Source: Nocardioidaceae bacterium (GTDB lineage: Bacteria > Actinomycetota > Actinomycetes > Propionibacteriales > Nocardioidaceae). From it: a stretch of 36,630 nucleotides of DNA. A model generated the notes under the pieces. The model was not told the DNA's origin, ran no database searches, and saw only the letters and a program-made list of their open reading frames with translations. The stretch lies in assembly GCA_025966335.1 (NCBI GenBank), contig JAICRS010000002.1, forward strand, positions 1 to 36,630. Reading direction: 5' to 3'. A program made the translations under genes and the position numbers. Shown piece after piece: positions 2 through 2,094 of the stretch (its first letter is position 1; every line of letters starts with the position of its first letter).

Positions 2-97
2 GCGGTGACCGAGTCGCTGGGTCGGCGCGAGGTGAAGGGCAAGGCCGAGCCGCTGGAGGTGTACCGGGGGGTGGCGCTCCAGTCGGAGGCGGTGTGA
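2..97 (+). CDS. C-terminal end of a probable class III adenylate/guanylate cyclase (5' truncated by window)
   Basis: Frame 2 reads AVTESLGRREVKGKAEPLEVYRGVALQSEAV*, typical of the end of a class III cyclase domain (xVKGKAEPxxVYR). Confidence 0.55.
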   Translation, partial: AVTESLGRREVKGKAEPLEVYRGVALQSEAV

Positions 98-433
98 GTT
101 CAGCATGCAAGGGCTGAACCCTGGCGTCGCGGGGCCGCGCGACCGTTGGGCCGTTGCAGTTCAGCCTGTGAGTGCTGAATGGGGACGGCTCAGCGCCTTT
201 GGCCTCGTGCTCGTGCTGGTGGTGCTTCGGCCGCGGTGGTGTGCGTTCAGCATGTAGGTGCTGACCCAAGAGAGACCATGGCGGTCGCGGGGAGAGCGAT
301 TGTTGGGCGTTGGAGTTTCAGCCTGTGAGTGCTGAACGAGGACGGCCAGTGTCTTGGCCTCGCGCTCGCGCGGATGGTGCTCCTGCCGGGGGCGGCCGGA
401 GGCCGATCCGAGTTCAGCTCGTGAGCGCTGAAC
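98..433. repeat. Array of five 22-nt inverted repeats GTTCAGC-N8-GCTGAAC (98-119, 159-180, 245-266, 316-337, 412-433) in diverged tandem units of about 150 bp
   Basis: Read directly: GTTCAGCATGCAAGGGCTGAAC, GTTCAGCCTGTGAGTGCTGAAT, GTTCAGCATGTAGGTGCTGACC, TTTCAGCCTGTGAGTGCTGAAC, GTTCAGCTCGTGAGCGCTGAAC; the intervening spacers also align pairwise. Confidence 0.9.
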
Positions 434-521
434 TGAGAAAGGCCCGGCAAGAGAAGTCGTCACGTTTATTGCGCTCGGTCCCGTCTCGTCATCCAGAAGT
501 GTCGGACGACTTAAGTACGCT

Positions 522-537
522 TCGAACATACGTTCGA
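522..537. promoter_or_regulatory. LexA (SOS) box TCGAACATACGTTCGA
   Basis: Perfect match to the actinobacterial SOS box TCGAAC-N4-GTTCGA, 17 bp upstream of the ATG at 555. Confidence 0.88.
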
Positions 538-554
538 GACTATGGAGGTTGCGA

Positions 555-2072
555 ATGAAGACCGATACCGAGTTGGTTGCGGCGGATCTGAGCACTCTGT
601 CCAATCACGACCTGCTCGCCGGAGGGCTGGACGACGAGCTGAGGATGAACTTCTATGCCGCCCAGCGGCTCGCCCGGCTGGAGGAATACAGACGCAGGAT
701 GGAGGCCGATGTCAAGGCGCGCAAGGCGGCCGAGCCGCACTTCACGATGACGCCGATCCGGGAGACGGTGGTCGAAGCCGGTGAGCTGTGGGGACTGAGC
801 GAGGGCCGGGTCCGCGGCAGCCTGAGCACCTCTCGGACCCTGCAGGAACACTTTCTCGGGATCTGGCAGCTCTTCCGCACCGGTGCGCTCGACCCCTACA
901 AGGCATCGTTGATCGCCGACACCGCCAAGTTCAGCCTGGATCGACCGGCTGAGTTCGCCCGGTTCGCCGAGCGGCTCACGGCCTGGTTGATCAGACGCAT
1001 CCCCGATCATGATCCGTCACGGCCACGGTTGGTGAACTGCACGGTGAAGCAGCTGCGGAACAAGTTGAACTACGAGGTCAAGAAGCTCAAGTCGCGAAAG
1101 GACGAGAAGCGGTTCAAGCAGGCCTTCGCCGACCGTAAGGCTCAGGCCACTCTCGGAGACGACGGCATCGGGTGGCTGAACATCGGGAACACAGTGACGG
1201 ACGTCCAGCTCGCCGACCACCGGCTCACCCTGATCGCCAAGGCGCTACGCGCCCAAGGTGACGAGCGCACGATCGAACAGCTCCGTGCTGACCTGGCGAT
1301 CGACCTGATCGCCGGTCGGGTGGCGGTCGATGCCACCAACGCCGAGCTCGAGGACGAGGAACGCGAGGGTGAAGGCGCGTCGACCGGTGAGGGTGCCAAA
1401 GCGTCGGTCCGACGGCTCCCGACGTTGAACTATGCCAGGCCCATCCTCGCGGTGACCGTTCCGATCCAGACGCTGATGGGCATCTCCGACCACCCCGGCA
1501 TGCTCTCCGGCGGCACGACGATCCCGGCCTCGCTGGCCCGCAGAATCGCAGCCGACGAGGACTCCACCTGGTTCCGGATGCTGACCGACGAGCGGAACCA
1601 GTGCGTCGAGCTCTCGACGAAGTCCTATCGGCCCACCAAGGAGATCTGGCGCGATGTGGTGCTGCGGTACGGGACCTGCTATCGACGCAACTGTGATCGC
1701 GCGGCCACCGGTTGCGAGCTGGACCACGTGGAGGAGTTCCCCGCCGGGCCCACCTCGAACGAGAACCTCGAGCCCGCCTGCAAGCCCGACCACACGGCCA
1801 AGCACGCTCCGGGGTTCGGAGTCGAGAAGAACGATGACGGGACCGTGACCCTGCACACCAGGGCCGGGTTCAGCCACCGGGTGCAGCCGACCGAACAGCC
1901 CGCCACCACGAACTGGCCAGACCTGCGGTCCTGGGAGAGTCAGTACACGGCGACTGAGATCGTCGACGCCATCGCCTACCTCGCCGTCCGGGACGAGGCC
2001 ATGAACGACGGCCCCAGCTGCTACCTCGCCGAGGAAGACCGTTGGTTCCTCGATCACCCGTACGCCGCATGA
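555..2072 (+). CDS. DUF222 domain / HNH endonuclease (13E12 repeat family-like)
   Basis: HNH motif CYRRNCDRAATGCELDHVEEFPAGPTSNENLEPACKPDHTAKH; GGAGG RBS at 544-548 favours ATG at 555 over the TTG at 549. Confidence 0.88.
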   Translation: MKTDTELVAADLSTLSNHDLLAGGLDDELRMNFYAAQRLARLEEYRRRMEADVKARKAAEPHFTMTPIRETVVEAGELWGLSEGRVRGSLSTSRTLQEHFLGIWQLFRTGALDPYKASLIADTAKFSLDRPAEFARFAERLTAWLIRRIPDHDPSRPRLVNCTVKQLRNKLNYEVKKLKSRKDEKRFKQAFADRKAQATLGDDGIGWLNIGNTVTDVQLADHRLTLIAKALRAQGDERTIEQLRADLAIDLIAGRVAVDATNAELEDEEREGEGASTGEGAKASVRRLPTLNYARPILAVTVPIQTLMGISDHPGMLSGGTTIPASLARRIAADEDSTWFRMLTDERNQCVELSTKSYRPTKEIWRDVVLRYGTCYRRNCDRAATGCELDHVEEFPAGPTSNENLEPACKPDHTAKHAPGFGVEKNDDGTVTLHTRAGFSHRVQPTEQPATTNWPDLRSWESQYTATEIVDAIAYLAVRDEAMNDGPSCYLAEEDRWFLDHPYAA

Positions 2073-2094
2073 GTTCAGCACCTCAGCTCTGAAC
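2073..2094. repeat. Sixth copy of the 22-nt hairpin, GTTCAGCACCTCAGCTCTGAAC, directly after the HNH stop codon
   Basis: Same 7-8-7 geometry with one arm mismatch; preceded by TGA as is the copy at 98. Confidence 0.85.

Follow-up and report, generated by a model that had tools for sequence, protein, structure and literature searches.

A DUF222-HNH nuclease gene between palindromes

The window (the whole 36,630-nucleotide stretch of DNA analysed) is an entire contig (C94) of a 371-contig, 3.03-Mb assembly that is 78% complete. The relatives of this genome are Nocardioidaceae, with N. jiangsuensis WL0053 (genome G003) as a sampled genus mate. Gene calls were made by a simple composition rule. 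Following a cyclase-like gene that is cut by the contig edge, the window carries an array of palindromes, a LexA (SOS) box and a nuclease gene with a further palindrome at its stop codon (Table 1).

The sequence-only reading had called the gene DUF222/HNH, and both domains were indeed found, though just under their Pfam cut-offs: DUF222 (PF02720) scored 23.9 bits against a cut-off of 24.4 (E 3e-5; 24.5 bits in a frame search), and HNH (PF01844) fell slightly short at E 1.5e-3. The order, DUF222 then HNH, is that of 13E12-type proteins, and the HNH residues C372, C377, D387-H388, N401, C406 and H410 are invariant across the 8 homologues compared. DUF222-HNH (13E12) proteins are common and multicopy in actinobacteria, including Mycobacterium tuberculosis. 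The genome containing the window has four DUF222 genes, including one fragment, and lacks a close HNH paralogue of the window gene. The predicted structure of the protein has a pLDDT of 64 overall, with a poor HNH part, and a PDB fold search with it returned no useful match; searches of Rfam and of a defence library gave no significant match and no match, respectively. A phage, plasmid or viral origin was considered and rejected, as distant HNH matches were confined to four unannotated phage contigs and plasmids and viral contigs gave none.

Table 1. Features of the palindrome-flanked nuclease locus, in window coordinates.
Feature	Position	Strand	Remarks
Palindrome 1	98..119	-	Exact 7-8-7; abuts TGA (95-97) of cyclase-like gene; strand by homology to palindrome 3, less certain
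Palindrome 2	159..180	-	One mismatch; minus-strand reading TTCAGCAC
Palindrome 3	245..266	-	One mismatch
Palindrome 4	316..337	-	One mismatch
Palindrome 5	412..433	-	Exact; begins third repeat unit; strand by homology, less certain
Imperfect tandem duplication	70..391		Two-palindrome unit of ~150 bp; 70-236 aligns with 218-391 at 75% identity (E about 2e-25)
LexA (SOS) box	523..536		CGAACATACGTTCG; 18 nt 5' of start codon; CGAAC-N4-GTTCG form
DUF222/HNH nuclease gene	555..2072	+	ATG at 555 preceded by GGAGG; HNH motif about 1677-1793 (Cys/His/Asn residues conserved)
Internal palindrome	1938..1959	+	GTCAGT-N8-ACTGAG; 10/12, core 1939-1958; codons 459-465 (numbered from 564)
Palindrome 6	2073..2094	+	One mismatch; abuts HNH stop codon; orientation opposite to upstream array

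Six copies of GTTCAGC-N8-GCTGAAC had been described around the gene. All six lie where they had been placed and their gap of 8 nt is invariant, but only the copies at 98 and 412 are exact (2 exact copies in the window versus 0 in 100 dinucleotide shuffles), the other four having one mismatch each. The earlier statement that the motif occurs nowhere else in the window holds for copies with 11-12/12 arm matches but overlooked the 10/12 copy within the nuclease gene. The five upstream palindromes belong to a ~150-bp unit repeated imperfectly in tandem about 2.3 times; they reflect a local duplication with a third unit begun, not five separate arrivals.

As the sequence-only reading had it, both outermost copies adjoin a TGA (95-97 and 2070-2072). 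Elsewhere in the genome, other copies lie 7-70 nt 3' of genes, and the predicted RNA folding energies of the palindromes run from -4 to -10 kcal/mol, features that would fit RNA hairpins serving as terminators or 3'-end stabilisers. We consider such a function highly improbable. The palindromes carry no U-run and received no terminator call (the GC stem plus T-run of an intrinsic terminator is missing), the palindrome at the rplI locus (C116) is followed by a distinct, strong GC hairpin that has a short T tail, and termination would account neither for five copies in series upstream of a gene nor for one conserved in coding sequence.

A LexA box upstream of the gene

The proposed SOS box was borne out: CGAACATACGTTCG stands in promoter position, and 0.02 such boxes are expected by chance in the window. 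Exact LexA boxes are also found 5' of five homologues (L169, L171, L187, L190 and L205), which come from N. jiangsuensis, UBA4001, two Pseudonocardia and Helcobacillus. The best reading of the box is that the DUF222-HNH gene is under LexA control, from which induction is predicted. The LexA link of 13E12 genes is not new here: HNH-bearing 13E12 genes have been discussed alongside the M. tuberculosis LexA regulon (PMC4181829).

A palindrome family dispersed in one genome

The 8-nt gap is a true constraint. A search of the own genome for TTCAGC-N(2-20)-GCTGAA gave 19 matches, 14 of them with a gap of 8 (P about 1e-19), where about 0.3 matches are expected per gap size and a reversed-pattern control gave 3 matches. 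Twelve of the 14 gap-8 sites are intergenic and two fall in coding sequence (C101 and C366), an intergenic share far above chance for a mostly coding genome with an assumed intergenic fraction of 10-20%. Once oriented, the sites have the consensus RTTCAGCAC-N6-GCTGAAY. With the last arm pair relaxed to C:G or T:A, the genome holds 17 TTCAGY-N8-RCTGAA sites in 3.0 Mb, about 14 of them non-coding. Other sampled genomes of the family mostly have 0 or 1 TTCAGC gap-8 match, with any match at all in 62 of 299; the outliers are the own genome (14 matches) and G289 (11). The dispersed family thus described rests on one incomplete genome.

The sequence-only reading had proposed testing for enrichment of the hairpins beside DUF222/HNH genes. 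The genome-wide check did not find it: about 10 intergenic sites occupy 9 loci with no DUF222 gene nearby, and the other three DUF222 genes of the genome lack palindromes, the window gene alone carrying them. Among 40 homologous DUF222/HNH loci from named genomes, none showed a GTTCAGC hairpin or an array of one hairpin.

One explanation is that these are ordinary REP-like intergenic repeats of the lineage, which came to lie beside the HNH gene by chance and were duplicated in place; the internal site in its relatives would be a coincidence or some other constrained element. The independent copies mostly lie far from any DUF222 gene and have only the 22-28-nt palindrome in common with the window, and five of the six window copies derive from one tandem duplication. 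A distinct REP-like family in G289, GTGAGG-GTTCAGCGG-N4-CCGCTGAAC-CTCAC (L161-L165), is likewise dispersed; its members are often paired about 70-115 nt apart and adjoin none of the nine DUF222 genes of that genome.

Other repeats were seen in the own genome. Dispersed loci C32/C274 and C273/C78 have further repeats in common, pairwise. C32 (L028:760-1130) and C274 (L024:2480-2620) carry GGTCACGGTGACCGG palindrome arrays with conserved spacers beside two dispersed GTTCAGC hairpins and share about 130 bp. Another intergenic repeat, with GTTGAGACGTGGAA-type units, links C130 (L025:2140-2350) and C170 (L084:2210-2370) at 76-85% over 80-135 bp.

A palindrome conserved inside the nuclease gene

A related palindrome, TTTCAGT-CCGCAGCG-ACTGAAC, lies 5' of the N. 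ungokensis homologue L167, two bases past the stop of the preceding gene and roughly 100 nt ahead of the L167 start. The Y/R relaxation was adopted after this site was seen, and the internal sites were found later. In 564 kb scanned with it, mostly DUF222/HNH loci and control loci, there were four perfect non-window matches, every one at a gene from the clade of the window nuclease. Besides the L167 upstream site, these are perfect TTCAGT-N8-ACTGAA palindromes inside the 3' end of the genes L167 (N. ungokensis), L168 (N. marmorisolisilvae) and L177. L166 matches the palindrome at 11/12 positions and the window gene at 10/12; in all five genes it occupies the same codons, and its arms covary as C:G or T:A. 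All five group in a single clade (support 1.00). At the genome level, TTCAGY-N8-RCTGAA occurs five times in 4.6 Mb of N. ungokensis, with two of the sites at L167, three times in N. marmorisolisilvae, with one within the nuclease gene, and once in the L177 genome, within the nuclease gene. A post hoc calculation gives a probability of about 7e-4 that an unrelated site would fall within 200 nt of one or the other N. ungokensis gene.

The internal site is conserved at the DNA level, against codon bias, through selection on DNA or RNA. The peptide over it is (I/V/F/S)-Q-F/Y-S/T-A-T-E, and the palindrome requires the rare codons ATT or TTT, ACT and GAA; ACT is present at the site in 5/5 genes, although just 10 of 143 threonine codons in these genes are ACT. 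When codons were resampled synonymously, the palindrome recurred at P about 6e-4 for three genes individually, 0.025 for L166 and 0.0065 for the window gene. These tests cover five genes, which are not fully independent because L166, the intact N. ungokensis homologue, and L167 are close paralogues. In a codon-conservation scan blind to the palindrome, the internal site was the top seven-codon window (16.2 against a mean of 3.4, sd 2.0; +6.5 sd), and the top four columns of the gene were 464, 465, 459 and 463. Codon identity in the remaining conserved columns was at chance level (32 vs 31.8 columns). Given no excess codon sharing elsewhere and a top window precisely at the palindrome, protein constraint is not the explanation, and selection on DNA or RNA is. 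Ordinary REP-like repeats would leave unexplained both this conservation and the restriction of all four perfect non-window matches to one nuclease clade, and we regard that account as somewhat doubtful.

The palindromes might instead be operators through which a repressor, perhaps the DUF222 protein, regulates the gene besides LexA. A fixed-spacing dyad fits a dimer, the window array lies 5' of the SOS box and start codon, and the N. ungokensis upstream copy is similarly placed. This is nevertheless unlikely, as sites also occur past the stop codon, near the coding 3' end and, elsewhere, between convergent genes.

Flanking copies are missing at L166 and L168, and the internal site alone is therefore general in the clade. 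L167, which carries two palindromes, is probably a pseudogene: an in-frame TGA interrupts its HNH domain (L167:4111).

The sequence-only reading had suggested that the hairpins could be recognition sites or end sequences for the nuclease, by analogy with REP/RAYT pairs. The internal site in three other Nocardioides-type genomes and the upstream copy in N. ungokensis speak for that association, but the lack of palindromes at other DUF222 genes does not. It had also held that hairpins scattered independently of DUF222/HNH genes would count against it; such scatter is largely what the own genome holds, but the link to the nuclease clade survives via the internal site.

No sign of a mobile unit

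The suggestion that a mobile module occupies a TGA-GTTCAGC junction found neither an empty site nor transposon anatomy. Comparison of empty and occupied loci yielded no clean pair, and the TGA-GTTCAGC sequence is therefore without support as an insertion junction. N. jiangsuensis gives no clean empty site; there the genes surrounding the small downstream gene stand in a reshuffled order. A different DUF222-like gene of that genome (L115:6893-8878) lies in apparently the same neighbourhood, from XdhC-like to glutamate-cysteine-ligase-like genes.

A transposon or IS was rejected, with no terminal inverted repeats, target duplication, empty site or extra copies of the whole unit found. A larger mobile unit was likewise rejected: 86-470 is single-copy, and dispersed loci mostly share the palindrome alone.

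Elsewhere, the Propionibacteriales MAG Dino_bin33 contains at least 8 DUF222/HNH copies that are 75-92% identical (L172-L176, L178, L189 and L191), some with a nearly identical 286-bp flanking segment, inverted. The arrangement of these copies suggests recent multiplication beside an insertion element.

A candidate nuclease-site pair

We tentatively favour, at a probability of roughly 0.4, a LexA-repressed DUF222-HNH nuclease with its own site family, TTCAGY-N8-RCTGAA, in a REP/RAYT-like organisation built on an unrelated enzyme; binding and cutting are inferred. DNA damage would lead to synthesis of the nuclease, a dimer of which may bind the two half-sites and nick or cut at or near the site. 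Repair or template switching could then copy the small site to new places and duplicate it locally. The result would be a REP/RAYT-like pair with an HNH nuclease in place of the Y1 transposase.

The conservation of the internal site, its restriction to one clade, the placing of two of the five N. ungokensis sites at a nuclease gene and the SOS boxes of homologues favour this nuclease-site pairing. Against it stand the dispersed copies, which are not near other DUF222 genes, the missing flanking copies at L166 and L168, and the likely pseudogene status of the two-site N. ungokensis copy; it would also be strange for a double-strand cutter to carry an intact cognate site in its own gene. The broader proposal, an SOS-inducible DUF222-HNH REP-like system that recognises TTCAGY-N8-RCTGAA, keeps a copy in its own gene and disperses palindromes through actinobacterial genomes, seems to us fairly unlikely.

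The literature searched names no established substrate for DUF222-HNH (13E12) proteins. A candidate DNA site inside the gene, kept against codon bias, makes a 13E12 substrate directly testable with a 22-bp oligonucleotide.

Comparison with known systems

The window gene resembles 13E12 (PF02720 + PF01844; REP13E12 of mycobacteria) in domain order, HNH residues, actinobacterial paralogy and the LexA box, but represents a divergent subfamily, just under the Pfam cut-off, with companion palindromes that were not found at the other DUF222 loci tested. As with HNH homing endonucleases, a nuclease gene is tied to a specific DNA site; unlike them, it has no intron or intein, no empty allele was seen, and the site is intact in and beside the window gene.

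RAYT genes have been described with a flanking pair of inverted REPs, often directly past the stop codon (PMC2817692). The present locus is not a member of the REP/RAYT family, because the Y1/HUH transposase (PF01797) is missing, with no match in the own genome (78% complete) and positive controls detected, and because copy number is low, about 16-17 copies here against >100 there. It further differs in having an HNH rather than an HUH nuclease, palindromes without a GTAG head, and a site also within the nuclease coding sequence. The orientation of palindrome pairs varies, with inverted flanks in the window, a direct upstream/internal pair in N. ungokensis and none flanking L166 and L168. The likeness lies in a dispersed family of small, largely intergenic palindromes, a gene set, in the window, between oppositely oriented copies with one abutting its stop codon, a tandem (BIME-like) array, and arms that vary while their complementarity stays. 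If the proposed pairing is true, a second, unrelated type of enzyme would stand at the origin of REP elements.
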